From Syntrophaceae bacterium (lineage in GTDB: Bacteria > Desulfobacterota > BSN033 > UBA1163), in contig JACAEX010000007.1 of the NCBI GenBank assembly GCA_013388635.1, positions 1-56,603 on the forward strand: a stretch of DNA of 56,603 bases. The letters run 5' to 3'. Both the position numbers and the translations under genes were made by a program. The notes beneath the pieces are model-generated. The model had not been told where the DNA came from, did no database searches, and worked only from the letters and a program-made list of their open reading frames with translations. Of this stretch, positions 24,847 through 50,157 are shown piece by piece (within the stretch, counting starts at the first letter, position 1; every line of letters starts with the position of its first letter).

Positions 24847-24870
24847 ATTCATCTCTCGAAGAGGCACTTT

Positions 24871-25344: not shown

Positions 25345-25362
25345 AGAGAAATTCTCCGAACT
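25330..25362. repeat. short inverted repeat, GTTCGGAG family, copy 3
   Basis: AGTTCGGAG (25330-25338) and CTCCGAACT (25354-25362) are perfect reverse complements. The left arm encodes the hcrC C-terminus and the right arm lies 12 bases before the hcrA start, so a hairpin could modulate translation between the two genes. Confidence 0.7.
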
Positions 25363-25374
25363 GAGGGGTGATCA

Positions 25375-27654: not shown

Positions 27655-27699
27655 TCGTCACCAAATTCCAGGCACCAATTGAAGAGAGGTATGGAAACG

Positions 27700-28083
27700 A
27701 TGGATAAGAAACGTTATGAAGAGGGATTAGCCGTCAGAAGGGCTGTTTTGGGATCGGAATACGTCGACAAGTCGCTTCGTTCAGCCGATGACTTTACCCG
27801 TCCAATGCAGGAACTGGTGACCGAATACTGCTGGGGAGAAATCTGGACCCGGCCAGGCCTCGACCGCAGGATCCGAAGCTTTCTCAACCTTGCCATGCTT
27901 ACAGCCCTGAACCGTCCTCACGAAATCAGGTTGCATGTGCGCGGGGCTCTGAACAACGGTGTGACCAAGGAGGAGTTGATGGAGGTCTTTCTGCAGTGCG
28001 CTATCTATTGCGGAGTTCCAGCCGCGCTCGACGCCATGCGCGTTGCCAAAGAGGTACTTGCAGAGATCGAAAGTGAAAAATGA
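27700..28083 (+). CDS. carboxymuconolactone decarboxylase (AhpD/CMD) family protein
   Basis: A 127-residue all-helical protein of the gamma-carboxymuconolactone decarboxylase type. YEEGLAVRRAVLGSEYVDKS, TEYCWGEIWTRPGLDRR and RSFLNLAMLTALNRPHEIRL are close to PcaC proteins. It lacks the CxxC pair of peroxidase-type AhpD. In anaerobes such proteins are often found beside aromatic or dicarboxylate pathways with unknown roles. ATG 27700 is preferred over ATG 27691 and TTG 27679 because GAGAGG stands ten bases before it. It overlaps the next gene as ATGA. Confidence 0.82.
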   Translation: MDKKRYEEGLAVRRAVLGSEYVDKSLRSADDFTRPMQELVTEYCWGEIWTRPGLDRRIRSFLNLAMLTALNRPHEIRLHVRGALNNGVTKEELMEVFLQCAIYCGVPAALDAMRVAKEVLAEIESEK

Positions 28084-29664: not shown

Positions 29665-31692
29665 TCAGCCGATGTCGCGTCGCGCTTCGGCGACCACACC
29701 AGCCAAGTCCTCCGGCAGCGGCGGTGCACCCTCTTTCGTTTCGGGCGCGGGTGCCACTTTCGGCGAAGCAATCAGGTTGTGACGCCTGATGGCCCAGATC
29801 AGGGCAATGAGGGTCATCGCAGCGGTCGCCCAGACCAGCTTGTCGTTTGGATGGAACAATGTGACGGAGGAGACCACCGCAAATAGAATGCGCGCCAGGA
29901 TATTCCCCCACAAATTCCTGAAACAATGCCCGAACATCGCGAAAGCGAACCCGCAGGTGCCAGTGGTCACCAGCAGGATGTCGCCAATCTGCCTCCAGCC
30001 GGGTTTCACGACCAGATCCGAGCGGGTGAAGAGTGCAAACGTTATGATCGTAATCGGCAGGCAGATTTTCAGCGCCTCCCACATGGTTTGCATGAACGAT
30101 GCGTTCGCAATTCGAGAGCAGACCGCGGCAGCGAGCGACGTCGGCGGCGAAAGCTCGCCCCAGACCGACAGAAAGAACACAAAGAAGTGGGCAACCCACG
30201 GATTAATTCCGAGTTTCGTCATCGGCGGCACGATGATCACTGCGCCAATGATGTAAGTTGCGGTCGGTGGCAGGCCGGTGCCAAGGAGCCATCCGAAAAC
30301 CCATGCCAGCAGGATCATCGCAACGATGTTCCAGGTGCCGACCTCGAGCATCATCGCTCCCATCCGGAGGATGAAGCCTGTGATCGTGAACAAGCCGATC
30401 ATGATGCCGAGCGTGGCGAGCAGTTCCGTAAGGTAGGAGGTCATCTCGGCATGCGTTTCGAACCCGCGTCGGATGCAGGCGAACAGCGTCTCGCCCGCGA
30501 GGAAGGGGTCCTTGCGCACGTATTTGAAATAGAGGAAAACCGCGACCAGCACCCCGAACATCCAACTCGCGGTATTGACCGCGGCAAGCAGTTCGCCCTT
30601 GCCGAGGAACCCCATCAGAACCACGAGATAGGCCACGGAGCCAAAGAAAATGCTGGTCGTCACCTTCTGGTAGAGAGGCACCTTCGGCTTGTCGATGGGT
30701 TCGCGCGGCAACAGGCGAACGGAAAAGAGATAGATCGCCATGCCAATCGAAATGTAGTAGATGAAGGAGAACCCGAAGCCCCGCAGCACGACGTCCCAGT
30801 AGGGCACACCGAGCATTTCCGCCATAATAAACGCGGCCGCTCCCATCATCGGGGGGTCGATCAGCGAGCCCATCGACGCCGAGGTCTCGACTGCGGCGGC
30901 GACGACCCGCGGTAAACCGTAGCGAATCATCAAGGGAATGGTGATGGTGCCGACCACAGCGGCGCTGGCCGATCCGCTGCCGCTGATCAGTCCGATCGCG
31001 CTCGACCCCAGCACCGAGGTCTGCGGGATCAACCGCCTCGACCCGGTGAGCAGGCGCACGACTTTGATCATCGCGTCTTGCGCGTTGAAGCCGTTAGCGA
31101 CGCCGGCCAGCAGCAGGAAGGCAGCAATCAACGTGAGGGCGAGCTGGCCGTAGAGGCCGTAAATGCCGGTGGAAAACTCGACCGTGGAGGACGTAATCAC
31201 GCGATAGAAGGTCGTCCCCGGATGCCAGAAGAAGTCGAGCGAGCGCGGAAATACGTATCCGTAGAGCGTATAGACGATCATCACGACATTGGTCCAGAAC
31301 AGGATCGAATGGTCAAGACGCGTCAGCTCCATCACCAGCAGGAACATCAGCAGGCCAACGATGAAATCTTGTGTCGTGTACGTGCCCTGGCTGTAGATCG
31401 CGATCCTATCGTATTCGAACAGTAAGTACACGAACGCATAGGCGGCGATCGCGAGGTAGAACGCGACGAAGGCACGGTTGACTGCTGGCGGCAGCCGCTT
31501 GTACAGGTAGCCCTGCTTGTAGTGAAATAGGACTTGCAGCGCCAGGGCGACCGGAATCAGGCGCGCGGCAAGCAACAGCGCGCCGCCGAGACCCGTGTAA
31601 AAGTAATAGACCAGCCAGACGGAGAAGACAAACGAAACCACGAATATCAGATTACTGATATTGAAGTGACTTCTGATCCGGTTAACCCACAT
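29665..31692 (-). CDS. fused TRAP transporter permease (TAXI type)
   Basis: Secondary transporter combining the small (DctQ-like) and large (DctM-like) membrane components in 675 residues. There are about 17 hydrophobic segments. Signature blocks include IGLISGSGSASAAVVGTITI and GSLIDPPMMGAAAFIMAEML in the first DctM half, and GWLLGTGLPPTATYIIGAVI in the second. The substrate is probably a carboxylate, as in the family. The gene is visibly GC-rich with strong GC bias at third positions, unlike the 20-27 kb region. GGGGGAG precedes the ATG. It is downstream of its binding protein on the same strand. Confidence 0.9.
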   Translation of the reverse strand: MWVNRIRSHFNISNLIFVVSFVFSVWLVYYFYTGLGGALLLAARLIPVALALQVLFHYKQGYLYKRLPPAVNRAFVAFYLAIAAYAFVYLLFEYDRIAIYSQGTYTTQDFIVGLLMFLLVMELTRLDHSILFWTNVVMIVYTLYGYVFPRSLDFFWHPGTTFYRVITSSTVEFSTGIYGLYGQLALTLIAAFLLLAGVANGFNAQDAMIKVVRLLTGSRRLIPQTSVLGSSAIGLISGSGSASAAVVGTITIPLMIRYGLPRVVAAAVETSASMGSLIDPPMMGAAAFIMAEMLGVPYWDVVLRGFGFSFIYYISIGMAIYLFSVRLLPREPIDKPKVPLYQKVTTSIFFGSVAYLVVLMGFLGKGELLAAVNTASWMFGVLVAVFLYFKYVRKDPFLAGETLFACIRRGFETHAEMTSYLTELLATLGIMIGLFTITGFILRMGAMMLEVGTWNIVAMILLAWVFGWLLGTGLPPTATYIIGAVIIVPPMTKLGINPWVAHFFVFFLSVWGELSPPTSLAAAVCSRIANASFMQTMWEALKICLPITIITFALFTRSDLVVKPGWRQIGDILLVTTGTCGFAFAMFGHCFRNLWGNILARILFAVVSSVTLFHPNDKLVWATAAMTLIALIWAIRRHNLIASPKVAPAPETKEGAPPLPEDLAGVVAEARRDIG

Positions 31693-31763
31693 AGACTCCC
31701 CCCTGCCGCGGCCTGCGCCGGATCGGCGCCAACTGCTGCCCGAACGTATCGTTTATGCGCTTA

Positions 31764-31877
31764 CCCCGTTAGAAAACCCCGCTGCCTGCAGCAGGGATGA
31801 GTTGGTATCCTCATGAGTGAACACGGGGTGTAAAAACCTTTGTGAGCCATTGGAACGGCAAAGATCTTCTAACGGGG
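31764..31877. repeat. 11-base inverted repeat between the two TAXI-TRAP genes
   Basis: CCCCGTTAGAA (31764-31774) and TTCTAACGGGG (31867-31877) are perfect reverse complements separated by 92 bases. They almost exactly bound the spacer between the binding-protein stop and the permease leader. This could fold in the transcript or be a remnant of an insertion. Confidence 0.5.
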
Positions 31878-31878
31878 C

Positions 31879-32925
31879 TTACTTGCTGCCCGCGACCTTC
31901 CACTTGACGTTCCAGGCATTGTTCTCCTTCAGGAACCTGACCAAGCCCGGATGTACCGGAATGTCCGGATTGGCGTTGATGCCCTGCACCTGCATGCCGA
32001 CGAAGTCCTTCGCCAACGGCGTGAATCCCGGGTCGCTCTTCACGAGATCGTCCTTGTTCTTGTAGAACGCGGTGATCATCTTGTAGACGACGCTCTCGGG
32101 CATATCCGCACGCACGTTGTGGCCAAACAGGATACCAACGCCCAATAACGTGGGCGGGCCGACGCTCTTGCTGAAAGCGTTCTTCGGGTCGACCTCGATG
32201 ACCGCGAGGCCGGCCGCCTTGAGCTTCGCGACCTCGTCGGGGCAGGGATTCACAACCCGGATGTCTATGCGGATCTCAGTCTCTTTCCAGTAGGCGGGCA
32301 GCGAGCGGCCAGCGGTGGTGTAGGTGGCTGACCCCACTATGGAGCCAGACTCCAACGCGTCAGCATTCGACTTGAGGTCGATCTGGACGTGCTTGAACTC
32401 GTAGCCGAGCACCTTGTAGATGCGTACCCAGTTCAGCCAGTTCATGAAGCCAGCGTTGGTATAGAAGACTGGCTTGCCGCTGAAGTCGCGCCAGCATTTG
32501 AACTTATCGGCATGCTTTGCCGCAACGGCCATCATCGACTCCATCGGATAGGAGTACCAAGTGTGCACGATCTCCGGCATCTTGGGCTTGTAATCCTTGA
32601 ACCCACCAACGCGCTGATGAAACTCGCCCATGCCGATGTCTGCCGTGTAGCTGATCTCCGCCTCCCCATTCATCAGTGCCTTCATGGCAACGGTGGGAGA
32701 GGTATACGGTTGGACGGTGACAGTGTATTCGCCGCCTAGTGCCCCCTCGATGACCTTTGCCAAAAAAGCGGCGATCGTGTAGCCGTATGATCCTACCGCG
32801 GAGGTCGCCAACCGCATCGGCTTTCGCTGTTGCGCATAGGCTGGATCGATCGCCGAAAAAGCGAAGACTGCTACAAACGCCACAACCAATAATGAAAAAA
32901 CATAACCTGGTCTTGTTCTTGACAT
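31879..32925 (-). CDS. TAXI family TRAP transporter solute-binding protein
   Basis: Periplasmic receptor for the adjacent permease, 348 residues. A signal peptide ends at about AYAQ (residue 31). MRLATSAVGSYGYTIAAFLA begins the mature protein, in the position of the TAXI family's substrate-binding glycine loop. ATYTTAGRSLPAYWKETEI and HPGLVRFLKENNAW are typical of the second lobe. AAAGGAGG lies before the ATG. Base composition matches the GC-rich permease, so the pair travelled together. Confidence 0.88.
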   Translation of the reverse strand: MSRTRPGYVFSLLVVAFVAVFAFSAIDPAYAQQRKPMRLATSAVGSYGYTIAAFLAKVIEGALGGEYTVTVQPYTSPTVAMKALMNGEAEISYTADIGMGEFHQRVGGFKDYKPKMPEIVHTWYSYPMESMMAVAAKHADKFKCWRDFSGKPVFYTNAGFMNWLNWVRIYKVLGYEFKHVQIDLKSNADALESGSIVGSATYTTAGRSLPAYWKETEIRIDIRVVNPCPDEVAKLKAAGLAVIEVDPKNAFSKSVGPPTLLGVGILFGHNVRADMPESVVYKMITAFYKNKDDLVKSDPGFTPLAKDFVGMQVQGINANPDIPVHPGLVRFLKENNAWNVKWKVAGSK

Positions 32926-33126
32926 GGCTTTCCTCCTTTGAGTGTAATTTGGCGCAGCGGGGTATCGCCACGCGATTCCGGCAAGCGGCCTTAACGGTCC
33001 TCACCGGCGGTTCATCGACGCATACTGATAGTAAGCTCGAACCGGCCGACCAGGTGTTTTGAACCAGCAATGCCAGGCATTCCTGCGACCGATTCCCCGA
33101 CCGCTATGCTCGGCGTTAATGCAATG

Positions 33127-33375
33127 ATAAGTGAAAAAGATTCGATTGTCTTATTGGTTACGGAGGATAATCAAAATCTGTTTATATGTCAACTACAAAA
33201 ATATATACCCTCTTCGCGTCTTGATATTTGTCATCCAATCTGGTATAGCATGACCATCGCTGATTCGCTCTTTGGGGTGCTCACCGAAACAGAAGGTCTG
33301 GAGCAGGTGATCCGGAAACGCCTGCCCCAGATCGCCTTGACGGATATCCGGAGGGAAGGCACCTATGAGGCTTGA
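33127..33375 (+). other. small open frame of unknown status, possibly a gene remnant
   Basis: The frame gives 82 residues (from ATG 33127) with no recognised family. Its last 25 codons (EQVIRKRLPQIALTDIRREG) look coding in composition, while the first 40 are AT-rich. It overlaps the start of the cytochrome subunit gene by 11 bases and contains that gene's ribosome-binding site. It may be a translational-coupling leader, the truncated end of a lost gene at the island border, or chance. The rest of 32926-33364 holds nothing recognisable. Confidence 0.3.
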
Positions 33376-34192
33376 AGAAGAGAGTCAAGGGATCAGCGCC
33401 CCTTTGTGGCCGATCCTCGAGAAAATGCCTTTTCTTTCGCGTTATGCAAAGACCCGCGGCTGGTATTACGTGATCAGCTGGCTCCACAGGTTCTCAGGGA
33501 TCTGGCTCTTCATCGCTCTGTTGGTCCATCTATATACCCTCTCATCATTGCAGACGCCAGACGTCTTCCTTAGCGACATGAAAATTTCGATCCAGCCGAC
33601 CTTTCTTTTCCTCGCCTGGGCCTCATCTCTGGTTGTGGGCTTTCATGGCCTCAACGGCTGCCGTCTCATCCTGTATGAATTATTCGGAAGGCGCAACGAT
33701 GCGGAGATGACTCGTTGGGTCTTCGGTCTCAGCACTGGGTATGCGGCGATGGTCGGACTGATGATGATCATGGAAAATCAGCAGGCGTCGGCGTTCTTTT
33801 TTTGGCTGATCGCGTTTTTTACAGGTGCGATCCTTGCTTATGTCGTGGCCTCCCGAATATGGAAAAGACGCCACTCGCTTCTCTGGAAGCTCCAGAGGAT
33901 CAGCGGAGCCTTTTTATTGATTACCGTTCCGGCATACCTTTTATTCTGGTTCCTGAATCCAGGTGAAGCCAATGGGACTCATGAGACTATCTTATGGATA
34001 GAGAACGTCTTCACCCGTCTGGTCTTTCTATCGGTGGCGATATCGGCGATCTATCATGCAGGGTACGGCCTCTTTTCAATCGCGGCCGACTATCTCCCTT
34101 CAAGGATAACAAAGACCGGCATGACAGCGCTGATCACAGTAGTCATGACCGTGGTTGCTGTTTTCGCCTTCAGGCTCATCCTGTGTGTTTGA
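33365..34192 (+). CDS. fused SdhC-SdhD-like cytochrome b subunit of a succinate dehydrogenase/fumarate reductase
   Basis: A 275-residue membrane anchor with about seven hydrophobic helices (roughly 38-60, 77-98, 118-137, 142-163, 178-196, 215-236, 253-272). The N-terminal half has SdhC features: SWLHRFSGIW and, later, GFHGLNGCRLILYELFG. The C-terminal half repeats the theme with LQRISGAFLL and YHAGYGLFSIAADY, which look like SdhD. This suggests two three-helix subunits joined by an extra helix. His residues in LHRF, VHLY, GFHG and YHAG are possible haem ligands. It is followed by the flavoprotein and iron-sulfur subunits. Confidence 0.82.
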   Translation: MRLEEESQGISAPLWPILEKMPFLSRYAKTRGWYYVISWLHRFSGIWLFIALLVHLYTLSSLQTPDVFLSDMKISIQPTFLFLAWASSLVVGFHGLNGCRLILYELFGRRNDAEMTRWVFGLSTGYAAMVGLMMIMENQQASAFFFWLIAFFTGAILAYVVASRIWKRRHSLLWKLQRISGAFLLITVPAYLLFWFLNPGEANGTHETILWIENVFTRLVFLSVAISAIYHAGYGLFSIAADYLPSRITKTGMTALITVVMTVVAVFAFRLILCV

Positions 34193-34221
34193 TCGGGAGT
34201 GGAACCCATGGCCCAGGCCCT

Positions 34222-34235
34222 GCCTACCGGTAGGC
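34222..34235. repeat. REP-like palindrome
   Basis: GCCTACCGGTAGGC is a perfect 14-base palindrome between the cytochrome and flavoprotein genes, sharing its core with 24819-24838. Confidence 0.6.
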
Positions 34236-34275
34236 GGTAGTTAGGGCAAGAGGAGTTTTACAAGGGGGAATCACA

Positions 34276-36072
34276 ATGGGGAAAAAGCTACGGATCCACT
34301 CTACATTAGCCTGTGATGTTTTGATTATCGGGGCCGGAGGAGCTGGTCTGCGATGTGCAGCACTGCTCCACGAGCGAAGACCCGATCTCTCGATCATCGC
34401 AGTAACCAAGGTGGCTCACCCGCAAAAATCCCACACCAGCACGGCCCAGGGAGGGATGGCCGCTGTTGATCCGAAGGATAAGGTGGATAAGCCGATCTAT
34501 CATATGTTCGATACCTGGAAAGGGGGCGACTGTTCCTCTGACCAGAACGTCATCAAGAAGATCATCGAGGGCGGCTGGGAAGAGGTCCAATGGCTGGAGC
34601 AGAAGGGAATACACTTCAGCCGGGATGAGGAGGGAAACATCGCCAAACGGCAGTTTGGCGGTCACACTCTTGAGTTCGGCAAAGGAGACGCCTTAAGGGC
34701 TGTATTCGTAGCCGATCGTACAGGCAAAGGGATGATGGATACGGTATGGGGGGAAGCACTCAAAGGGGGCTCCCTCTTTCTCAATTCGACTGTGATCACG
34801 GAACTCCTCTTCAACCAGGGCTGCTGCGTGGGCGCTGTACTCTTCAAAATCAAGCAAGGGGAGTTCATCACTGTCCTGGCCAAGGCAACCGTCTTGGCCA
34901 CCGGCGGCTCAGGCCAGGTGTTCCGGATCACGACAAACTGCCGTAACAATACGGGCGACGGGCTGGCGGTGATTTTGAGGGCCGGATTGCCGGTGATGGA
35001 TCCAGAGGCTGTACAGTTCCATCCTACTGGGATCGTCGGACCAGGCATCCTGGCCAGCGAGGCCCTGCGGAGCGAGGGGGGAATCTTGCGCAACAGAGAA
35101 TTGGAACCATTCATGGAGCGATATGCCCCCAAGATGAAAGACCTTGCTCCCCGGGATATCGTTGCCCGAGCGATCGAGACAGAGATCCGGGAAGGAAGGG
35201 GGATCATGAACCCCGACCATCAGATCGAGCATGTCTGGATCGATCTCCGCCACCTGCCCGACTATGTCCACGAGGTCAAGCTGAAGGAGGTGGCAAGCTT
35301 TTTTAAGACCTATGTCAATCTGGACTCGCGCACGCAGCTCTGCCCTGTCCGGCCGAGCAACCACTACCATATGGGAGGGATCCCGACCAATGAGCATGGC
35401 GAGGTGCAAGATGCCGCGAACAGGGTCGTCCCTGGGCTTTTCGCCGTGGGGGAGTGCGCCTGTGCGAGTCTTCATGGCTTCAATCGCCTTGGCACCAACT
35501 CCTTGCTGGAGCTGTTGGTGATGGGCCGATATGTGGGAGAACGGGTCCTTTCCTACCTCAGGGAAAAGCAGGTGTCCGGACCAAAGGGAGCGGGAGAGGC
35601 CTCGCTTGCCCTTTTCGCAAATTATCTTGAGGCCCAGGGAAGGGAAAATCTCGGCATGATCCGTCAGGAGATGAGGGAGGTGATGACCCGAAGGGTGGGC
35701 GTCTTTCGGATCGAAAAGGGGATCGAGGAGGCGATCGCCTCTCTGATCGCTTTCAAACAGCGAACTGCCAGAATCGCCATCTCCACGAAGGACATGAGGA
35801 TGAATCAGGAATTATTAGAGCGGTGGGAGCTGGACAATCTCCTCGATAATGCGATGACCATCGCCCAGGCCGCCCTGATGAGAAAGGAATCCCGGGGGGC
35901 CCATTTCCGGGAGGATTACCCGGAACGAAGCGACGAGTTTCAGTTCCACACACTCGTTTCCATGACGGAATTCGGCAAGGTCAGCTTCGGAAAACGACCG
36001 ATCGATATGAGCATCTATGAATCCAAAGGAGAACACCACGAACAATTTAGGGTCATGCCGAGGAGATATTGA
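34276..36072 (+). CDS. succinate dehydrogenase/fumarate reductase-type flavoprotein subunit
   Basis: A 598-residue FAD subunit. GAGGAG (19-24) binds FAD. KSHTSTAQGG carries the histidine (about 53) that attaches FAD covalently in the family. The active site includes QFHPTGIVGPG, SEALRSEGG with the catalytic Arg, and HYHMGGIPTN. HGFNRLGTNSLLELLVMGR completes the signature. Covalent FAD, the full active site and a membrane anchor argue against L-aspartate oxidase. The linked PrpD, aldolase and dehydrogenase genes suggest the substrate may be a substituted succinate rather than succinate itself; this is inference. Confidence 0.88.
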   Translation: MGKKLRIHSTLACDVLIIGAGGAGLRCAALLHERRPDLSIIAVTKVAHPQKSHTSTAQGGMAAVDPKDKVDKPIYHMFDTWKGGDCSSDQNVIKKIIEGGWEEVQWLEQKGIHFSRDEEGNIAKRQFGGHTLEFGKGDALRAVFVADRTGKGMMDTVWGEALKGGSLFLNSTVITELLFNQGCCVGAVLFKIKQGEFITVLAKATVLATGGSGQVFRITTNCRNNTGDGLAVILRAGLPVMDPEAVQFHPTGIVGPGILASEALRSEGGILRNRELEPFMERYAPKMKDLAPRDIVARAIETEIREGRGIMNPDHQIEHVWIDLRHLPDYVHEVKLKEVASFFKTYVNLDSRTQLCPVRPSNHYHMGGIPTNEHGEVQDAANRVVPGLFAVGECACASLHGFNRLGTNSLLELLVMGRYVGERVLSYLREKQVSGPKGAGEASLALFANYLEAQGRENLGMIRQEMREVMTRRVGVFRIEKGIEEAIASLIAFKQRTARIAISTKDMRMNQELLERWELDNLLDNAMTIAQAALMRKESRGAHFREDYPERSDEFQFHTLVSMTEFGKVSFGKRPIDMSIYESKGEHHEQFRVMPRRY

Positions 36073-36105
36073 GCACTCGATCCCGGCTATCAAAAGGAAG
36101 GGACA

Positions 36106-36816
36106 ATGTCGAAGACCTATTCTTTGACCCTCACGATCAAGCGCTACGATCCGGAAAGATCTGTTAGCTGGTTTCAGACCTACAGGCTTGAGGCTGGCCC
36201 GATCCTCCGCTTCGTCGATCTGTTCCGGAAAATTAATGTGGAACTGGACGCTACGCTGGCCTGGGCGTCCTCCTGCGAACATGCCCAATGCGGCAGTTGC
36301 TCGGTAAATATCAACGGAAGGCCGATGCTTGCCTGTGAGCTGCTTGTGGAAAATGCCGTTGCCCTGTTCGGCGTGACGGAATTTAAGATCACGCCGGTCT
36401 CAGTCGCCCCGGTCGTCCGCGATCTCGTCGTGGACTGGGAGAAGGCCTATGAACGTGTTCACCGGTCAAAACCCTACCTCATCAAGCCCAAAAAACTTCC
36501 TCCTGGTATGACGGGATTTCGAATCTCTCCCGCGGAGCTTAGCCGGTATGAAGAGGCGACGCGGTGTATTAACTGCTTCTGCTGCGCCGAGGCCTGTATC
36601 AGCGGAAACCGGAACTTCATCGGCCCCAATGCAGCGATGGCCAGCATCGTCCGGATGATGGATCCGAGGGAAGAGGGAAAGGATGAGCGGCTGAATCTCC
36701 TCTACAGCGAAGAAGGGATCTATCGTTGCCACACCTCCAAGGCCTGTTCCCATGTCTGTCCGAAGAAGATCGACGTGGCCCACTTTCTTGCGCTGGCCAA
36801 GGAGGGGGCTTTTTAA
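36106..36816 (+). CDS. succinate dehydrogenase/fumarate reductase-type iron-sulfur subunit
   Basis: A 236-residue electron-transfer subunit. The [2Fe-2S] site is SCEHAQCGSCSVNINGRPML followed by AC. The [4Fe-4S] motif is CINCFCCAEAC (about 150-160), where the usual CP after the fourth cysteine is CI. The third cluster uses CHTSKACSHVCPKKIDV near the C-terminus. Three clusters in this order are diagnostic of SdhB/FrdB. It lies 33 bases after the flavoprotein gene and 12 bases before the PrpD-like gene, so one operon is likely. Confidence 0.9.
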   Translation: MSKTYSLTLTIKRYDPERSVSWFQTYRLEAGPILRFVDLFRKINVELDATLAWASSCEHAQCGSCSVNINGRPMLACELLVENAVALFGVTEFKITPVSVAPVVRDLVVDWEKAYERVHRSKPYLIKPKKLPPGMTGFRISPAELSRYEEATRCINCFCCAEACISGNRNFIGPNAAMASIVRMMDPREEGKDERLNLLYSEEGIYRCHTSKACSHVCPKKIDVAHFLALAKEGAF

Positions 36817-36828
36817 GAGAGGAACGTG

Positions 36829-38178
36829 ATGTCCGGAGAAACCCTGTCGAACCGATTGGCCGAGTATTTCTGTCATGTGACCTTCGACGACTTGAAACCG
36901 GGCCTTGTCGCGAAGATGAAGTTTTTTTTACTCGACTGGCTGGGCTCTGCCTACGCAGGTAAGGGCCTCCCTCCGGTCCAGATGATGCGAAAGGTGGTTC
37001 GGAGTCTGGGCGGCACGCCCGAAGCCACATCCATTCCAGACGGTGTCAGGACCAGCTGCCTTTTGGCCTCGTTGGTCAACGGTGCGTCCTCACACATCGT
37101 CGAGATGGACGATCTGCACCGTGAATCGATCCTCCACCCCGCGGCCGCAATCCTCCCGGCTGTGCTTGCGGCCGGTGAACGGGAGAGGGTTTCGGGAAAA
37201 GATCTGATCGTTGCGATTTCGGTCGGCTACGAGGTGGGTATTCGGGTGGCACTGGGAGTTGGACCAAGCCATTACCGTTTCTGGCACACCACAGCCACCT
37301 GCGGGACATTCGGAGCGGCGGCCGGAGCGGCCAAGGTGATGCAACTTAACGAGGACCAGTTCGCCTGGGCGATCGGATCGGCTGGGACCCAGGCGGCTGG
37401 CCTCTGGGAATTTCTCAAGGAAAGCGCGATGAGTAAGCAGCTGCATCCGGGCAAGGCTGCCATGAATGGTCTGCTGGCAGCACTGCTCGCAAAAGAAGGT
37501 TTTACCGGTGCGAGGAGAATCCTGGAGGGGGAGAAAGGTTTTTTCCGTGCCACCTCGCAGGATTTCGACGAAAAGAAGTGTATCGCAGACCTGGGAAAGG
37601 TCTTCCACTCCGAGCGCAATTCAATCAAGTATCACGCCTCCTGCGGCCATACACATTCCGCCATCGACGCAGCACTTCTGGCGACCGGAGGCAAACCGTT
37701 GCTGCCGGACGATGTGGAGACGGTCGATCTTTGGATCTACCAGGCTGCGGTTGACCTTCTGGGAAAGATCGAACCTAAGACACCTTACCTTGCGAAATTC
37801 AGCCTGCCTTTTTGCGTGGCCACAGCGCTGCGCTATGGCCATGTCCAGCCGGGAGATTTTACATCAGCGAAGCTCGAAGACAAGGATCTGAGACGGCTGA
37901 TGGAAAAGATCAAAGTGGCCAGCGATCCCGATCTCAGCCGGACCTATCCTGGCAAATGGCCGGCGCATGTGAGAATCACCCTGAAGGATGGGAAAAGGCT
38001 CGATGGGGTAAATGAGTATCCAAAAGGAGATCCTGAAAATCCCTTATCGGAGCAGGAGCTGATCACGAAATTCAAGAGCCTTACCCAGGGAGCACTTCCC
38101 TCCTCACAGGGCGATGTGATCATCGATCGCGTGCTGGGTTTGGAGTCGATGGTCGACGTCAATGAACTTCTGAGATGA
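36829..38178 (+). CDS. MmgE/PrpD family protein (2-methylcitrate dehydratase-like)
   Basis: A 449-residue member of the MmgE/PrpD family, which includes 2-methylcitrate dehydratase, cis-aconitate decarboxylase and iminodisuccinate epimerase. Typical blocks are FFLLDWLGSAYAGKG, HIVEMDDLHRESILHPAAAI with the family's D-D-H motif, and ISVGYEVGIRVALGVGP. TATCGTFGAAAGAAKVMQL and KYHASCGHTHSAIDA are also present. The exact reaction (hydration, dehydration or decarboxylation of a branched dicarboxylate) cannot be read. ATG 36829 is chosen over GTG 36826. Confidence 0.85.
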   Translation: MSGETLSNRLAEYFCHVTFDDLKPGLVAKMKFFLLDWLGSAYAGKGLPPVQMMRKVVRSLGGTPEATSIPDGVRTSCLLASLVNGASSHIVEMDDLHRESILHPAAAILPAVLAAGERERVSGKDLIVAISVGYEVGIRVALGVGPSHYRFWHTTATCGTFGAAAGAAKVMQLNEDQFAWAIGSAGTQAAGLWEFLKESAMSKQLHPGKAAMNGLLAALLAKEGFTGARRILEGEKGFFRATSQDFDEKKCIADLGKVFHSERNSIKYHASCGHTHSAIDAALLATGGKPLLPDDVETVDLWIYQAAVDLLGKIEPKTPYLAKFSLPFCVATALRYGHVQPGDFTSAKLEDKDLRRLMEKIKVASDPDLSRTYPGKWPAHVRITLKDGKRLDGVNEYPKGDPENPLSEQELITKFKSLTQGALPSSQGDVIIDRVLGLESMVDVNELLR

Positions 38179-38227
38179 CAAAGTTGGCATGGCCCTTCCC
38201 TTTTTTTCTCAAAAGAAGGAGGACACG

Positions 38228-39115
38228 ATGGAGAGGAATGAATTTCGTGGAATCTTCCCGTATCTGGTCACACCTCTGGACGAAAAGGGCCGGCTCAAGG
38301 AGCAGGTCCTGGCCGATCTCGTCGATCATCTGATCCGCAAGGGTGTCCACGGCCTCACACCTCTGGGCAGCACCGGCGAGGCACCCTACCTGGATTGGGA
38401 CACGAAACGGCGCACCATTGAGGTGGTCGTGAAGTCAGCGGCGGGACGCGTGCCGGTGGTGGCTGGGGTTTGCAATACCTCCACGCACGGCGCTATCCGC
38501 GAAGCGGCGGAGACCGAAAAACTGGGGGTCGACGGTATCCTGACAATGATGCCTGGATACTTTCCACTGAGCGACCAACAGGTCGTGGCCCACTTTCGCG
38601 CGGTCGCCAAGGCCGTCTCCTGTCCGATCACCCTTTACACGAATCCCAAGTTCCAGACCTGGGACTTCACGGTGGAGGCGCTCAAGCAGCTGACCGACGA
38701 ACCGAACATCTTGTATTTGAAATACGCCTCTGGCGACGTAGGGAAGATCATGTCCATCGTGACAACCCTCGGTCACCGCCTCAGGATCTTCAGCGATACC
38801 TCTTCGGTGCCCCTGTTCATGTTTCTGATCGGCGCCGTCGGCTGGATGTCCGGTCCGGCCTGCGTGATCCCTGTACAGAGTATCGAGCTGTACGAGGCGG
38901 CGAGCCGAAAACGGTGGGACGAAGCGGCTGAGCTGCAGAAGAAGCAATGGCCGCTCAACGACGCTTTTCAGCGTTTTTCTCTCTCGGCATGCATCAAGGC
39001 AGGGCTGGAAATGCAGGGCTTTCCCGTCGGTCCTCCCCTGCCCCCACAGAAGCAGCTGGACGCCGAAGGGAGGCGCGTGCTGGAGAGCATTCTCAGGAAC
39101 ATTGGGGCGCTGTGA
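38228..39115 (+). CDS. dihydrodipicolinate synthase/N-acetylneuraminate lyase family aldolase
   Basis: A 295-residue Schiff-base aldolase. RGIFPYLVTPLDEKGRL starts the barrel, LGSTGEAPYLDWDTKRR is the carboxylate-binding loop, TLYTNPKFQTWD contains the catalytic Tyr position, and ILYLKYASGD has the Schiff-base lysine (about residue 166). True DapA is unlikely, given the catabolic context and divergent loops. Cleavage or formation of a 2-oxo acid such as pyruvate plus an aldehyde or keto acid is the family role. ATG 38228 has AAGGAGG just upstream, so the earlier in-frame starts are not used. Confidence 0.85.
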   Translation: MERNEFRGIFPYLVTPLDEKGRLKEQVLADLVDHLIRKGVHGLTPLGSTGEAPYLDWDTKRRTIEVVVKSAAGRVPVVAGVCNTSTHGAIREAAETEKLGVDGILTMMPGYFPLSDQQVVAHFRAVAKAVSCPITLYTNPKFQTWDFTVEALKQLTDEPNILYLKYASGDVGKIMSIVTTLGHRLRIFSDTSSVPLFMFLIGAVGWMSGPACVIPVQSIELYEAASRKRWDEAAELQKKQWPLNDAFQRFSLSACIKAGLEMQGFPVGPPLPPQKQLDAEGRRVLESILRNIGAL

Positions 39116-39165
39116 GAGGCGGGGTCCAGAAGGAGGAAGATGGAATCCATTCAGTTGCGGTTACC

Positions 39166-39261
39166 TGCTTAATAAAGGCCCTCTGGATAACGGACTTAAT
39201 CGGATACGGGTTACTTGCAATCATTGCCACTTATCAATATACCCGTGTCAAAAAGAAATAA
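39166..39261 (+). pseudogene. remnant of a TRAP permease C-terminus
   Basis: The frame ending TAA at 39259-39261 encodes LIKALWITDLIGYGLLAIIA then TYQYTRVKKK. This aligns without gaps to the last 30 residues of the intact permease downstream (LIKPGWRTDLIGLGLLVIVF then VYQYTKMKK), with many identities. Nothing upstream in this frame resembles the rest of a permease, and the frame has no start codon of its own. It is therefore the surviving tail of a deleted or recombined paralogue. Confidence 0.75.
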
Positions 39262-39309
39262 TTCATGTCTATCGTAAAATCCCCCTGCCCCGCCTTTTTT
39301 GAGTTTGTA

Positions 39310-39338
39310 TTGACAAAAAAATCGTAAAGTGGTAGGGG
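39310..39338 (+). promoter_or_regulatory. possible promoter of the TAXI-TRAP genes
   Basis: TTGACA (39310-39315), 17-base spacer, then TAGGGG (39333-39338), a poor -10. A hairpin GGTTTTT (39370-39376) with AAAAACC (39390-39396) follows in the leader. This would allow separate control of the transporter part of the gene run. Between 39262 and 39432 nothing else is recognised. Confidence 0.35.
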
Positions 39339-39432
39339 AAAGACAAACATATGGGAGGGGAGGTGGTCTGGTTTTTGCGCCTACGGGTAAAAAACCCTTT
39401 ACATCAGCCTAAAAATACTTAGGAGGTGGGAG

Positions 39433-40416
39433 ATGAAACGGTTCTTAATCGTCCTTGCTGTTGTGATGATGTGCGTTCCTTTCTTGCTGGCCACGGGTGA
39501 GGCCCAGGTCAAGCCCGGTTGGCCAAAATCGGTGACCATCGGGGCAGCCCCCGTAGGAGGGACTTACTACATCTGGATGGGTGGATTCGCAAAACTGCTC
39601 CACGACAAGATGGGGATCCCCGGCAATGTGGAGGTGACTGGAGGTCCTGTCCACAATACCCAATTGGTCGATGCCAAGAAAATAGATTTTGGCCCTGTGA
39701 CGGCTGGACCGGTATGGGAGGGATGGACCGGAGAAGGCTGGGCGAAAGGGAAGAAGCATCAGAACCCGAGGGTGATCTTTCCCATGTACGCCACTTACTT
39801 CCAGATGTACGCCCTGAAGAAAACCGGCATCAAGAGCATTCATGATCTCAATGGCAAGAGTGTAGGGGTCGGCCCTGTCGGTGGGACACCTGCGACCTAT
39901 TGGCCCAAGATCCTTGAGGCAGCAGGCGTAAAACCTGCAAGGATTGTGAATGCCGGATCGGCAGATCTCAATTCCCAATTGAAAGACGGGATGCTCGATG
40001 CCAATGGCCAATCAGTGGGCCTGCCCTGGGTCATCATCTCGGAGATCGAGGTTACTCATGAGATCAATATCCTGCCTATCCCCAAGGCCGACGCAGAAAA
40101 GTTCATTGCCAAATATCCTCTCTTTGCCACAGGGGTCATCCCTAAGGGATTTTACAAGAGCAACAAAGACTTTGATGTGGAGACGATCACCGTCTGGAAC
40201 TACATGACCGTTCACAAAGACGCCCCGGACGATTTTGTCTACGAGGTTGTCAAGAAGAGCTTCGAGAACGTCGGCATCTTAATCGCTGCCCATGCATCAG
40301 CAAAAGAGATGAAGCCGGAGGCTATTGTCACCAGTCCCATCCCCCTCCATCCCGGAGCAGTCAAATATTATAGAGAGAAGGGGATTAAAATTCCGGATAA
40401 GTTGATTCCCAGATAA
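39433..40416 (+). CDS. TAXI family TRAP transporter solute-binding protein
   Basis: A 327-residue periplasmic receptor with a signal peptide (about 1-24, ending ATGEAQ). TIGAAPVGGTYYIWMGGFAK is the ligand-binding loop. GVGPVGGTPATYWPKILEAA, then DANGQSVGLPWVIISEIE, and HPGAVKYYREKGIKIP complete the TAXI signature. TAGGAGGTGGGAG precedes the ATG. It serves the fused permease 120 bases downstream. A terminator-like hairpin between the two should make the receptor more abundant than the permease. Confidence 0.9.
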   Translation: MKRFLIVLAVVMMCVPFLLATGEAQVKPGWPKSVTIGAAPVGGTYYIWMGGFAKLLHDKMGIPGNVEVTGGPVHNTQLVDAKKIDFGPVTAGPVWEGWTGEGWAKGKKHQNPRVIFPMYATYFQMYALKKTGIKSIHDLNGKSVGVGPVGGTPATYWPKILEAAGVKPARIVNAGSADLNSQLKDGMLDANGQSVGLPWVIISEIEVTHEINILPIPKADAEKFIAKYPLFATGVIPKGFYKSNKDFDVETITVWNYMTVHKDAPDDFVYEVVKKSFENVGILIAAHASAKEMKPEAIVTSPIPLHPGAVKYYREKGIKIPDKLIPR

Positions 40417-40456
40417 GAGCCTCACCCAAATCAAGATGACGGCATGAAAAAAGGAC

Positions 40457-40502
40457 GTGCGGGCGAGCCATTTCTCACGATGACCGCCCGCACAGATTTT
40501 TT
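40457..40502 (+). terminator. intercistronic terminator/attenuator
   Basis: GTGCGGGCG (40457-40465) and CGCCCGCAC (40485-40493) form a perfect nine-pair stem followed by AGATTTTTT. Placed between binding-protein and permease genes, it probably gives partial termination. Confidence 0.8.
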
Positions 40503-40541
40503 AACCCTTACCACCCGATTGGAAAAAACGGAGAACCTGTG

Positions 40542-42476
40542 ATGAAGGATGAGAAGGTAGCTGATATTAAAGAGGTTGAGCAGAAACTTCAGGAGCTTCA
40601 TATCAAGGACGTTGAGGTTTCTCCGGGGAGAGAATTGAAAGGCCCTCTTTACGTCGCTGTCTTCATGGTGGGCCTTGCCATGAGTTTTTTTCATATCTAT
40701 GTACTGACGATCCGTGCGATCGACCCATGGTATTTCAGAACCATGCATGTCGTCTTTGCCGCTGTCCTGATCTTCGCCTTGATCCCGGGCTGGAAAAAGG
40801 CTCCTCGCAACCGGATCCACTATATCGATTATCTCTTTATCCTGTTGATTGTTGCGCCGACCGTATATATCTTCATCGAATTCGACGAATGGATCTATCG
40901 GGTCGGCGTGGTTCCGAATCAATGGGATTTCTTCTTTTCCTTGCTCTTTGTCATTTCTGTGGTTGAAATGACCAGGCGGACGACAGGCCTGCCCCTGGCT
41001 ATCTTAAGCGGAATTTTCATCCTCTATGGCCATTTTGGCAACTATATGCCCGGCCTCTTTTATCACAAGGGGTATGCCTGGGATCGGATGATGACCTATC
41101 TCTTCAGCCTGGATGGGATATTGAGCCTTCCCATCCTGGCCTCTGCCCACTACATCTTTCTCTTCGTCCTCTTCGGAGCCTTCATAGAATCATCTGGAGC
41201 AGGGAAGTTCTTTGTCGACCTGGCCAGGTGTGCGGCAGGCCGTTTCAGAGGAGGACCTGGCAAGGTTTCCATCATATCGAGTGCCTTTATCGGAACGGCC
41301 TCAGGGTCATCCGTGGCCAATGTGGTGGTCGACGGGGTCTTCAATATTCCTATGATGAAACATGCGGGGTTCAAAGCCCACATTGCAGGAGCGATCGAGG
41401 CGATGAATTCCGCCGGTGGTCAAATCGTCCCGCCGGTGATGGGTGCCGGGGCCTTTCTCATGGCAGAGATCTTAGGAATACCCTACGCAAAAGTGGCTTT
41501 GGCTGCGGTCATCCCAGCTGCCTTATACTACTTCGCGGCTTACTGGATGATAGACTTCTATTCTGCCTCGGCTGGGTTGTGGGGAATGAAACGGGAGGAC
41601 ATCCCCGTCTTCAGGAAGATCATGGTTGAGAAAGGGTATCTCCTCGTCTCCCTTGTTGTGCTCGGAGTCGCCCTGATGGTCTTTATGTATTCTCCCTATC
41701 GATCAGCAATCTTAGCCATTATCACCTTGATCATCGTAAGCTGGATCAGGAAGGAGACCCGGCTCGGCCCGAAGAGCATCGTTGAGACGCTTGCAAAAGG
41801 AGCGAGAGGCTCGATTGAGATTGCGGCGACCTGTGCGGCCGCAGGGATTATCGTAGGGGTCCTCACTCAGACCGGATTGGGGATGAAATTTGCGATGATC
41901 ATCATCAACTATTCAGGGGGAAGCCTCATCCTGGCCCTGATCTTCACCATGCTGATCGCGATTATTCTTGGGATGGGTATGCCGACCACCGCGGCCTATG
42001 CCATCTCTGCCTCTGTTCTCGCACCCGCACTGATCCAGCTTAAGGTCCCGGCCATCGCCGCCCATCTTTTCATCTTCTACTTTGCCTGCCTCTCGGCATT
42101 AACTCCGCCCGTTGCCTTAGCTGCTTTTGCTGCGGCTGCAATTGCCAATGCAAAGACCTGGGATGTGGGATGGCAGTCGATGAGATTCGCCATAGCCGGA
42201 TTTATCATTCCCTTTATGTTCGTATATGGTCCGGCGATGGTCCTCATAGGCAGTGCAACGGAGGTTACCATCGCCATCATCACAGGCCTGATCGGAACCA
42301 TGGCGCTCTCCGGTGCCGTACAGGGGTGGTTGTTAACCAGGACCACGTGGCTGGATCGAGCCCTTCTATTGGCCGCTGCTCTCTTTCTAATCAAACCGGG
42401 CTGGAGGACAGATTTGATCGGGTTAGGATTGCTTGTCATCGTTTTCGTTTATCAATATACCAAAATGAAGAAGTAA
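40542..42476 (+). CDS. fused TRAP transporter permease (TAXI type)
   Basis: A 644-residue membrane protein fusing the DctQ- and DctM-like parts, with about 16-18 hydrophobic segments. An unusual polar N-terminus of about 45 residues (KEVEQKLQELHIKDVEVSPG) precedes the first helix. AFIGTASGSSVANVVVDGVF, GGQIVPPVMGAGAFLMAEIL and LGMGMPTTAAYAISASVLAP are the DctM signatures. ATG 40542 is used because GGAG lies eight bases before it. Native-looking composition distinguishes it from the GC-rich paralogue at 29.7-31.7 kb. Confidence 0.92.
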   Translation: MKDEKVADIKEVEQKLQELHIKDVEVSPGRELKGPLYVAVFMVGLAMSFFHIYVLTIRAIDPWYFRTMHVVFAAVLIFALIPGWKKAPRNRIHYIDYLFILLIVAPTVYIFIEFDEWIYRVGVVPNQWDFFFSLLFVISVVEMTRRTTGLPLAILSGIFILYGHFGNYMPGLFYHKGYAWDRMMTYLFSLDGILSLPILASAHYIFLFVLFGAFIESSGAGKFFVDLARCAAGRFRGGPGKVSIISSAFIGTASGSSVANVVVDGVFNIPMMKHAGFKAHIAGAIEAMNSAGGQIVPPVMGAGAFLMAEILGIPYAKVALAAVIPAALYYFAAYWMIDFYSASAGLWGMKREDIPVFRKIMVEKGYLLVSLVVLGVALMVFMYSPYRSAILAIITLIIVSWIRKETRLGPKSIVETLAKGARGSIEIAATCAAAGIIVGVLTQTGLGMKFAMIIINYSGGSLILALIFTMLIAIILGMGMPTTAAYAISASVLAPALIQLKVPAIAAHLFIFYFACLSALTPPVALAAFAAAAIANAKTWDVGWQSMRFAIAGFIIPFMFVYGPAMVLIGSATEVTIAIITGLIGTMALSGAVQGWLLTRTTWLDRALLLAAALFLIKPGWRTDLIGLGLLVIVFVYQYTKMKK

Positions 42477-42488
42477 GCGAGCAGGAAT

Positions 42489-43562
42489 ATGAAAAGATAT
42501 CATCGCATCGCTGTCATCCCAGGGGATGGGATCGGAACAGAGGTGATCTCCGAAGGGGTCAAATGCCTCAAGGCCCTTTCCGAGATCATGGAGGACCTCC
42601 GATTCGAATTTCAATACTTTCCCTGGGGGAGTGAGTTCTATCTGAACAATGGGAGGATGATGCCCGAAGACGGGCTGGAGATTCTGAAAGGTTTCGATGC
42701 CATCTATCTTGGAGCCGTGGGGGATCCGAGAATCCCTGACGATGTCACCCTTCATGGCCTTCTTCTCCCCATCAAGATGGGGTTTGACCTCTATGTCGGC
42801 CTCCGGCCAGTCTACCTCTTCCCGGGCGTGAAGTCTCCCTTATCAGGCTATTCCGGAGGAGAGATCGACATTGTGGTTATCCGGGAAAACACAGAGGGAG
42901 AATATTCGAACGTAGGCGGCATCGTCGGGATCGATGAGCGAAACCTGGCCATCCAGGGTGCTCTCTTCACCCGTAAAGGGATCGAAAGGATCATCACCTT
43001 TGCCTTCGAATACGCAAAAGAGAATGGAAGAAGGAAGGTCACCTCGGTCACAAAATCGAATGCCCAGCGCTACGGGATGGTCCTCTGGGATCGAGTTTTT
43101 AGAGAGGTGGCCTCTCGATTTCCTGAGATTCAAATCGAATCCAAACTGATCGATGCGGCATGTATGGATGTCGTCAGGAATCCAAAAGGTTATGATGTGA
43201 TCGTGGGGTCCAACCTCTTTGCCGATATCCTTTCAGACCTCACGGCCTCTGTTATAGGAGGCCTGGGCCTGGCACCGGGCGCAAGTTTTAACCCCAGGGA
43301 TAGGAGGTACCCGGGGTTCTTTGACCCAGTCCATGGATCTGCTCCAGATATTGCAGGAAAAGGTCTGGCCAATCCCATCGCCGCGATCCTCACGGCCAAG
43401 ATGATGCTCGACTATTTGGGTGAGAAGGAGGCTGCGGATCTGCTGTACCGGGCAGTCAAAAAGAACCTCTCCGAGAAGAAGGTGAGGACGATCGATCTCG
43501 GCGGTCGGTCAAGAACGGATGAGGTCGGAAACGATATCGTCAGGATACTCCGATCACTGTAA
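42489..43562 (+). CDS. D-malate/tartrate dehydrogenase-type decarboxylating dehydrogenase
   Basis: A 357-residue enzyme of the isocitrate/isopropylmalate dehydrogenase superfamily. [70 protein letters not shown] and FDPVHGSAPDIAGKGLANPI are closest to D-malate and tartrate dehydrogenases (DmlA/TtuC). These oxidise and decarboxylate 2-hydroxy dicarboxylates, including alkylated malates. It follows the permease by 12 bases and ends the operon. 3-Isopropylmalate dehydrogenase is an alternative, but the upstream LeuB-type gene at 12.5 kb fits that role better. Confidence 0.83.
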   Translation: MKRYHRIAVIPGDGIGTEVISEGVKCLKALSEIMEDLRFEFQYFPWGSEFYLNNGRMMPEDGLEILKGFDAIYLGAVGDPRIPDDVTLHGLLLPIKMGFDLYVGLRPVYLFPGVKSPLSGYSGGEIDIVVIRENTEGEYSNVGGIVGIDERNLAIQGALFTRKGIERIITFAFEYAKENGRRKVTSVTKSNAQRYGMVLWDRVFREVASRFPEIQIESKLIDAACMDVVRNPKGYDVIVGSNLFADILSDLTASVIGGLGLAPGASFNPRDRRYPGFFDPVHGSAPDIAGKGLANPIAAILTAKMMLDYLGEKEAADLLYRAVKKNLSEKKVRTIDLGGRSRTDEVGNDIVRILRSL

Positions 43563-43625: not shown

Positions 43626-44408
43626 TCAGCCTTTCTTCAATCCTGCTCCGGGGCTCATAGCCCGGCTGATTTCGCGGCTCGTCTTCTGAATCTCGACAAT
43701 CACCCTTTCCATCTTCGAATCATTGAGGCTCGAAGTAAACCCGACTACCCAGATGGCAGCCGGAGCAATGGAAGAAGTGTGAATCGGTGCGGCAACCGCT
43801 CTCACCCCCAGCATGTACTCTTCATTGTCGATCGCATACCCCCTCTTCCTCACCTCTTGGACCTCTGCAAGAAACCTCTTTGAATCGACGACCGATCTCG
43901 GGGTGTACCGGACCAGCCCCATCTTCTGAACGATCTCTTTAACCTTGCTCTCTTCGAGTTGAGAGAGGAAAGCCCTGGCTGTGGCTCCGGCCAGCAGGGG
44001 AAGCCTTGTCCCCGGAGGTGAGGTGATCTTCAGCTCGTTATGGGATTCCACGACGTCGAGGATGGTGATATGATCTCCGTTCATGATACCCAGAAAAACG
44101 GCCTCTTCGACCCTCTCCATCAGCCTCTCCATAGGAGGTCTGGCCACATCCCTCAATTCAATCCTCGTATAGGCTCTCCTTCCAAGCTCCAGCAGGGTAT
44201 ACCCTGCCCCGTACTTCTTATTAATGGGATCCCTCACCAGCACACCCAGCTCCTCCAAGGCCGATGTGATCCCGTGGACCGTACTTTTTCCGATATTTAA
44301 ACTCTTCGACAACTCACTCACCCCAAGACCGGTTGAGGAGCTGGTCACGGCCTGAAGGATCCTGAAGGCCTTCTTAACCGATGGCGCTGAATAGACAACC
44401 TTCTTCAT
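43626..44408 (-). CDS. IclR family transcriptional regulator
   Basis: A 260-residue regulator. An N-terminal winged helix-turn-helix (about 12-65: VSELSKSLNIGKSTVHGITS) is followed by the IclR effector domain (about 80-250: VFLGIMNGDHITILDVVES, LPLLAGATARAFLSQL, GYAIDNEEYMLGVRAVAAPI). These proteins usually sense small organic acids and control the adjacent catabolic genes. It converges with the D-malate dehydrogenase-like gene and diverges from the oxidoreductase operon, with two matching palindromes between, so it probably controls the latter and itself. Confidence 0.92.
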   Translation of the reverse strand: MKKVVYSAPSVKKAFRILQAVTSSSTGLGVSELSKSLNIGKSTVHGITSALEELGVLVRDPINKKYGAGYTLLELGRRAYTRIELRDVARPPMERLMERVEEAVFLGIMNGDHITILDVVESHNELKITSPPGTRLPLLAGATARAFLSQLEESKVKEIVQKMGLVRYTPRSVVDSKRFLAEVQEVRKRGYAIDNEEYMLGVRAVAAPIHTSSIAPAAIWVVGFTSSLNDSKMERVIVEIQKTSREISRAMSPGAGLKKG

Positions 44409-50073: not shown

Positions 50074-50157
50074 AAAAGCCCTCCCTTCCGAATGTGATGG
50101 ATTGCTGAACCCCTCGGGCCTCAGCATCTTTTCATATCATCCTCTTCAAATACGTCT

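Follow-up and report, generated by a model that had tools for sequence, protein, structure and literature searches.

Which acid would be oxidised by a succinate dehydrogenase (SDH)-type membrane complex whose genes lie next to one for an MmgE/PrpD-family protein? The question is raised by eight genes on the forward strand (positions 33365-43562) of a 56,603-nucleotide stretch from Syntrophaceae bacterium (GenBank assembly GCA_013388635.1, contig JACAEX010000007.1; the whole stretch is called the window). They encode a fused cytochrome b anchor (sdhCD), a flavoprotein (sdhA) and an iron-sulfur subunit (sdhB), followed by the MmgE/PrpD protein (mmgE), a DapA-like aldolase, a TAXI-type receptor with a fused TRAP permease, and a D-malate/tartrate-type dehydrogenase (ttc). 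A first-pass annotation, made from the sequence alone, had named these families and joined all eight genes in a chain in which a substituted succinate is oxidised by the complex, hydrated by the PrpD-like enzyme and then decarboxylated or cleaved. The reading frames and families are confirmed by domain and profile matches, and a pathway built on the membrane complex is supported, with a substituted succinate as the best substrate class. However, the hydration step should be replaced by an isomerisation, and the single chain by a mosaic of modules. With about even confidence, sdhCD-sdhA-sdhB-mmgE can be read as a module that oxidises a short branched dicarboxylate anaerobically; the substrate, used as the free acid, would most likely be methylsuccinate.

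The flavoprotein belongs to a separate lineage. It has the FAD_binding_2 and Succ_DH_flav_C domains, scores 595.6 bits on the general model for SDH and fumarate reductase (FRD) flavoproteins (TIGR01812, cutoff 567.3) and keeps the SHTxxAQGG flavin motif together with FHPT, RD, HYxMGG and NRLG. On the housekeeping SdhA equivalog model it falls short (TIGR01816, 580.6 bits against a cutoff of 727.35), and it reads HGFNRLG, not HGANRLG. Beside the active-site arginine, which we take to be substrate-binding (Arg399 of E. coli SdhA, Arg390 of FrdA), the canonical SDH/FRD sequences seen have HG-Ala-NRLG, while the window SdhA and 36 others in the tree have HG-Phe-NRLG. The canonical RGEGG is RSVGG in most Phe-type relatives and RSEGG in the window protein. 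A genome scan yielded 64 SdhA relatives, mostly 59-89% identical and mostly from Desulfobacterota metagenome-assembled genomes, the closest one found (89%) being in L007, labelled Syntrophus sp. The 37 HGFNRL proteins form a single clade (SH-aLRT 96), sister to HGHNRL/HGYNRL forms, and the Phe and His clades together are split from canonical SDH, including that of the same family (40-46% identical to the window SdhA), by a branch that measures 2.07 changes per site and has a support of 100. The phylogeny that had been suggested as a check thus places the protein outside canonical SDH, and by its sequence it is judged not to be of the housekeeping type. A housekeeping identity was rejected on tree and motif, though no other close SdhA was found in the window genome (3.4 Mb, 106 contigs, 95% complete), where paralogues were looked for protein by protein and the next match is 35% identical. 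The refuting condition set by the first-pass annotation, a flavoprotein placed inside the sole housekeeping SDH of the organism, does not hold in that form: the protein is the one close SdhA found there, but its type is not that of the housekeeping SDH carried by its family. The anchor resembles that of complex II in having one candidate heme b ligand in each half of the fusion, His94 and His231, presumably equivalent to those of SdhC and SdhD and kept in 98-100% of 59 relatives.

The sister lineage with HG-His-NRLG, seen in L034-L040, L046, L048, L050, L064, L067 and L070 with no MmgE nearby, appears from its sequences to be a second unrecognised SDH-like group in Desulfobacterota. The SdhA proteins of L145 and L146 have HG-Leu-NRLG.

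The Phe-type complex is accompanied by MmgE. An MmgE/PrpD gene lies at most 9.5 kb away in 29 of the 31 HGFNRL loci with usable context, and near none of the 18 non-Phe flavoproteins with flanks of more than 4 kb, bar one 27% identical flavoprotein within a Phe-type cluster. When stricter flanks are required, MmgE accompanies 13 of 14 Phe-type loci and 1 of 13 non-Phe loci, the latter being the same divergent flavoprotein. Two held-out genomes (L143 and L144), neither of which was used to frame the rule, obey it; the row in L144 is sucC-sucD-citE-mmgE-gntR-sdhCDAB-dapA. The mmgE gene may be upstream, downstream or on the opposite strand, and there are at least four switches between two MmgE clades along the SdhA tree. 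Because gene order, strand and MmgE clade vary in this way, proximity has been held through rearrangement, and since sdhCDAB and mmgE recur together across Desulfobacterota, their pairing is beyond chance.

The window MmgE is more probably an isomerase than the hydratase that had been supposed, because it is sister to methylsuccinate isomerases and has catalytic residues in common with them. In the Pseudomonas cluster MmgE is an (S)-(R)-methylsuccinate isomerase that works on the free acid, and the residues of its catalytic set have been described (PMC12290011). All of these, His, Glu, His, Tyr, His, Lys and Lys (HEHYHKK), are present in the window protein. The second position is Asp in IDS epimerase, B. 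subtilis IRG1 and cis-aconitate decarboxylase, and the last also lacks the Tyr. The clade of the window protein is sister to the true (S)/(R)-methylsuccinate isomerases (support 93/89), with 41% identity to the P. aeruginosa isomerase orthologue in L124. Its score on an isomerase-clade profile, 417 bits, lies between those of the isomerase clade (at least 639 for members outside the training set) and of other MmgE proteins (at most 326), and on 2-methylcitrate dehydratase (PrpD) models it gives 25-49 bits against cutoffs of 458-950. PrpD/2-methylcitrate and cis-aconitate decarboxylase roles were rejected on these model scores and on active-site residues. Among 693 plasmid records that match the window MmgE, the second in rank is the itaconate/methylsuccinate cluster of a P. 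aeruginosa megaplasmid (L124), and other top matches sit in ict-ich-ccl-mcd-type clusters.

The neighbours of the Phe-type complex in relatives suggest how its product could be used. A SucCD-like CoA ligase, a CitE/Ccl-like lyase, a GntR-type regulator, a class I fumarase, DapA and TRAP transporters recur there. The lyase is 28-38% identical to Pseudomonas Ccl, and L014, L020, L022 and L026 carry a VOC protein with 59-63% identity to PA0880, which serves the itaconate cluster of P. aeruginosa as its 2-hydroxyparaconate lactonase (PMC9875883). Where relatives have a linked hydratase (L018, L030, L143, L118), it is encoded by a gene of its own, for a class I fumarase, and class I fumarases hydrate mesaconate (PMC4682846). 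The substrate, the direction, the MmgE reaction and all steps after mesaconate are what we infer in the following route. A branched C5 dicarboxylate would be taken up by the TAXI-TRAP system, and MmgE, exchanging the alpha proton, would interconvert its (S) and (R) forms. The SDH-type complex would remove two hydrogens from methylsuccinate to give mesaconate, with electrons passing through the Fe-S clusters and the heme b anchor to quinone. In relatives, mesaconate could then be hydrated to citramalate by the class I fumarase acting as a mesaconase, activated to citramalyl-CoA by the SucCD-type ligase and cleaved to acetyl-CoA and pyruvate by the CitE/Ccl-like lyase.

In the window organism, where the block is flanked by an upstream transporter on one side and a dapA/TAXI-TRAP/ttc module on the other, the end of the pathway may differ. 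Away from the operon, the genome has a gene for a class I fumarase as well as a SucCD/CitE pair on contig C93, and mesaconate might be drained by this fumarase and then by the pair. Alternatively, mesaconate might be hydrated the other way, with Ttc acting as a 3-methylmalate dehydrogenase to give 2-oxobutyrate. The C93 cluster (L130, 5401-16569) comprises GntR, the SucCD-like ligase, the CitE-like lyase, a formyltransferase-like gene, glycolate-oxidase subunits and a DctP receptor, and is possibly a malyl-CoA/glycolate pathway. That its ligase and lyase are orthologues of the SDH-linked ones was rejected, given 35-37% identity and the glycolate-oxidase context.

Several points weigh against a methylsuccinate pathway of this kind. 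Relatives have genes for the CoA ligase, the lyase, the fumarase and the VOC protein that are missing from the window; the C93 pair, sitting among glycolate-oxidase genes, may have a malyl-CoA role instead; and neither DapA nor Ttc can be fitted into the scheme with certainty. The MmgE clade of the window scores 346-448 bits on the methylsuccinate-isomerase model, which is near the isomerase clade and not within it. The association of Phe-type SdhA with MmgE is formally a single clade-level contrast, and two loci with Phe-type SdhA, L010 and L023, have no MmgE in view, L010 carrying fatty-acid-type dehydrogenases in its place. In L010 (3657-12294) the Phe-type SDH genes precede those for a 3-hydroxyacyl-CoA dehydrogenase, a short-chain dehydrogenase and two acyl-CoA dehydrogenases; this SDH possibly acts on a different substituted succinate.

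The remaining genes of the operon have their own history. In a genome of the same family, G009, the locus is collinear with the window but the upstream receptor runs straight into dapA and ttc: the 4.9-kb sdhCDAB-mmgE block is missing, its flanks lying 25 bp apart, and so is the TAXI-TRAP block. L007 is collinear with the window through the end of mmgE and diverges thereafter. In eight further genomes of the family, TAXI-TRAP-ttc-IclR occurs with neither sdh nor mmgE, often in the vicinity of aldehyde ferredoxin oxidoreductase (AOR) and Mo-hydroxylase genes, and ttc orthologues 81-83% identical occur in 12 same-family genomes without Phe-type SDH. These comparisons show the operon to be a mosaic, with ttc belonging to an older family-level TAXI-TRAP-ttc-IclR-AOR module and the sdh-mmgE block either gained in the window lineage or lost from other family members. 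The first-pass annotation had suggested looking for conservation of the whole set: the SDH-MmgE linkage is conserved in relatives, and the exact eight-gene set was found in the window only. A role for ttc as a conserved pathway member was rejected because its linkage to Phe-type SDH is likewise seen in the window only.

As for the individual partners, the best PDB match of Ttc is 3flk, a tartrate dehydrogenase/decarboxylase, and its score on the tartrate dehydrogenase model TIGR02089 (456.4 bits) is 14 bits under the cutoff (470.4), yet the best of all models. The aldolase scores 170.4 bits on the DapA model TIGR00674 (cutoff 206.15) and has YTNPKFQ where Y-x-x-PSRT is expected; a lysine-pathway DapA role was rejected on the score and on the missing PSRT arginine motif. 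Its best PDB match, over the full length, is 3eb2 (324.6 bits), a structure of unknown function. A dapA gene lies 3' of sdhB also in L030, L043, L068, L143 and L144. Copies of the TAXI receptor, 56-58% identical, lie 3' of sdhB in L017 and L018, and a 71% identical TRAP permease adjoins the same SDH type in L018. Because they recur beside Phe-type SDH in relatives, TAXI-TRAP and dapA are plausible pathway partners.

It is against this background that other explanations must be weighed. The chain of the first-pass annotation, in which the complex forms an alkylfumarate, MmgE/PrpD adds water to give an alkylmalate, and oxidative decarboxylation by the tartrate/malate-type dehydrogenase follows, all from a single operon, would account for the gene order and the short gaps. 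The MmgE/PrpD family does include a hydro-lyase, 2-methylcitrate dehydratase, and several loci with mmgE show no fumarase in view. The chain is nevertheless unlikely, given the isomerase residue set, tree position and low PrpD scores of the window MmgE, the fumarase genes that accompany mmgE in the four loci named above, and the retention of ttc in the family without this type of SDH. It is similarly doubtful that the complex acts, by the same logic of isomerase and dehydrogenase, on another 2-substituted succinate, such as a longer alkyl-, benzyl- or carboxymethyl-succinate (for example tricarballylate). The pocket differences of SdhA (HGFNRL, and RSVGG for RGEGG in most relatives) fit a non-succinate substrate, acyl-CoA-dehydrogenase genes are present in L010 and L015, and the isomerase pocket could accommodate bigger C3 substituents (PMC12290011). 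However, the PA0880-type VOC proteins and Ccl-like lyases indicate C5 acids, and none of the identified neighbours is a fumarate-adding radical enzyme.

SDH and FRD enzymes work in both directions, and this generally known reversibility would allow the complex to serve anaerobic respiration as a quinol:mesaconate or itaconate-type reductase. A reduction of itaconate to methylsuccinate is known from an anaerobic gut bacterium (PMC12290011). The linked uptake, isomerase, CoA-ligase and lyase genes fit consumption of methylsuccinate instead, and the heme ligands of the anchor are of the succinate:quinone oxidoreductase type, so that reversal is thought quite improbable. Little probability is likewise given to an ordinary succinate dehydrogenase that lies by chance beside catabolic genes and serves the window organism as its tricarboxylic acid cycle enzyme, although the catalytic residues for succinate are retained and no other close SdhA was found in the genome. 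Apart from its separate clade and altered motifs, the Phe-type is rare, being found in 7 of the 394 genomes of a phylum sample (used after class-level sampling around G041 had yielded two genomes). It is absent from the listed genomes of the same family, most of which carry a different SDH, the canonical form noted above, and in G041 it stands alongside two canonical SDHs.

The described systems closest to the proposed methylsuccinate module include complex II and the itaconate-methylsuccinate cluster of Pseudomonas and Cupriavidus (PA0878-PA0886: ict, ich, ccl, mcd, MmgE isomerase, rdo and TRAP). With complex II it shares the sdhCD-sdhA-sdhB layout, the covalent-flavin motif, the active-site His and Arg motifs and the histidines of heme-ligand type; it differs in the fusion of SdhC and SdhD, in HGFNRL for HGANRL, in its clade and in its score under the sdhA_forward equivalog cutoff. 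With the Pseudomonas/Cupriavidus cluster it shares TRAP uptake and an MmgE of the sister clade with an identical catalytic set and, in relatives, the Ccl-like lyase and the PA0880-type VOC protein. In place of the acyl-CoA dehydrogenase there is a membrane SDH-type complex, proposed to act on free acids, and the part of the CaiB-type CoA transferase falls to a SucCD-type ligase; the receptor is TAXI, not DctP. The arrangement of CaiB-type CoA transferase, MaoC-type hydratase, acyl-CoA dehydrogenase and Ccl adjacent to MmgE (ict-ich-ccl-mcd) is not seen: the P. aeruginosa cluster proteins are without a match in the window, and the relatives have the Ccl-like lyase and VOC protein only. From the PA0881-type isomerase, whose catalytic residues it shares as a sister group, the window MmgE differs in its modest identity, its intermediate hidden Markov model score and its SDH neighbour in place of an acyl-CoA dehydrogenase.

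The layout of the locus is given in Table 1. The intergenic gaps from sdhCD to ttc are, in order, 83, 33, 9, 10, 317, 122 and 12 nt, and the G+C content is 51% in sdhCD, 56-59% from sdhA to dapA and 52-53% from TAXI to ttc. Given the 317-nt gap 5' of the TAXI gene and this base composition, the genes may be transcribed as two units, sdhCD-sdhA-sdhB-mmgE-dapA and TAXI-TRAP-ttc. Beyond ttc come the convergent IclR gene, an aldehyde ferredoxin oxidoreductase (AFOR family) and a ferredoxin.

Table 1. Positions in the window of the operon, the sdhCDAB-mmgE block and the adjoining regulator, with supporting evidence
Feature	Position	Strand	Evidence
sdhCD, fused cytochrome b membrane anchor, 275 aa	33365..34192	+	Pfam Sdh_cyt twice; TIGR02970 and TIGR02968, one per half
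sdhA-like flavoprotein, HG-Phe-NRL subtype, proposed methylsuccinate-type (branched-succinate) dehydrogenase	34276..36072	+	TIGR01812; His/Arg motifs; HGFNRLG; clade; linkage
sdhB-like iron-sulfur subunit	36106..36816	+	Fer2_3 and 4Fe-4S dicluster; TIGR00384 180.6 bits, cutoff 88
mmgE, MmgE/PrpD protein, proposed (S)/(R) isomerase of substituted succinate	36826..38178	+	Pfam MmgE_PrpD N and C; HEHYHKK; sister clade
sdhCDAB-mmgE block, missing from collinear G009 locus	33277..38201		blastn collinearity with L105
dapA-like class I (Schiff-base) aldolase	38189..39115	+	DHDPS Pfam 187.9 bits; GSTGE, Tyr (YTNP) and Lys (YLK) motifs
TAXI-family TRAP solute-binding receptor	39433..40416	+	TIGR02122 226.1 bits, cutoff 84.35
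Fused TRAP permease	40539..42476	+	TIGR02123 666 bits, cutoff 321
ttc, D-malate/tartrate-type beta-decarboxylating dehydrogenase	42489..43562	+	Iso_dh; TIGR02089; PDB 3flk
IclR-family regulator, convergent, adjoins ttc across family	43626..44408	-	Pfam IclR_C 137 bits, HTH_IclR 48 bits; synteny

Some features around the operon deserve mention. A 101-aa reading frame (33070-33375, forward strand) without a family match overlaps the start of sdhCD, and a 59% match to it adjoins ttc in G010 (L104, 10231-10398). Divergent from the operon is a second fused TRAP permease with a divergent TAXI-like receptor (29665-32925, reverse strand), counterparts of which adjoin Phe-type SDH clusters in L013, L014 and L025. 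Further upstream is a 4-carboxymuconolactone decarboxylase, here in an anaerobe (27679-28083, forward strand; TIGR02425 161.8 bits, cutoff 155.7), which adjoins Mo-hydroxylase subunits resembling those of 4-hydroxybenzoyl-CoA reductase (23728-27654), a HIBADH-type dehydrogenase and a DJ-1 protein; in L013 this small protein is again found, next to dapA and DJ-1. A lone TctC-type tricarboxylate receptor lies 3' of the island (49093-50127, reverse strand).

No description of an anaerobic methylsuccinate pathway, of an SDH-like alkylsuccinate pathway or of an SDH-type methylsuccinate route on free acids was found in the open-access papers searched, subscription papers being outside the search. 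The sequences tentatively point to a distinct complex-II-like class, a free-acid methylsuccinate (branched succinate):quinone oxidoreductase marked by HG-Phe-NRL and partnered with an MmgE-type isomerase in Desulfobacterota, a proposal held with somewhat less than even confidence. If so, this would be a new substrate class for complex II, a well-studied respiratory enzyme, and HG-Phe-NRL could serve as a sequence marker for re-checking 'succinate dehydrogenase' annotations in the phylum. Methylsuccinate arises from the reduction of itaconate by anaerobes, and no itaconate-fermenting bacteria are known (PMC12290011). The linked dehydrogenase, isomerase and uptake genes in these sulfate-reducer and syntroph lineages are a candidate anaerobic methylsuccinate sink; in anoxic habitats, such a pathway would complete the carbon loop that follows the reduction of itaconate.

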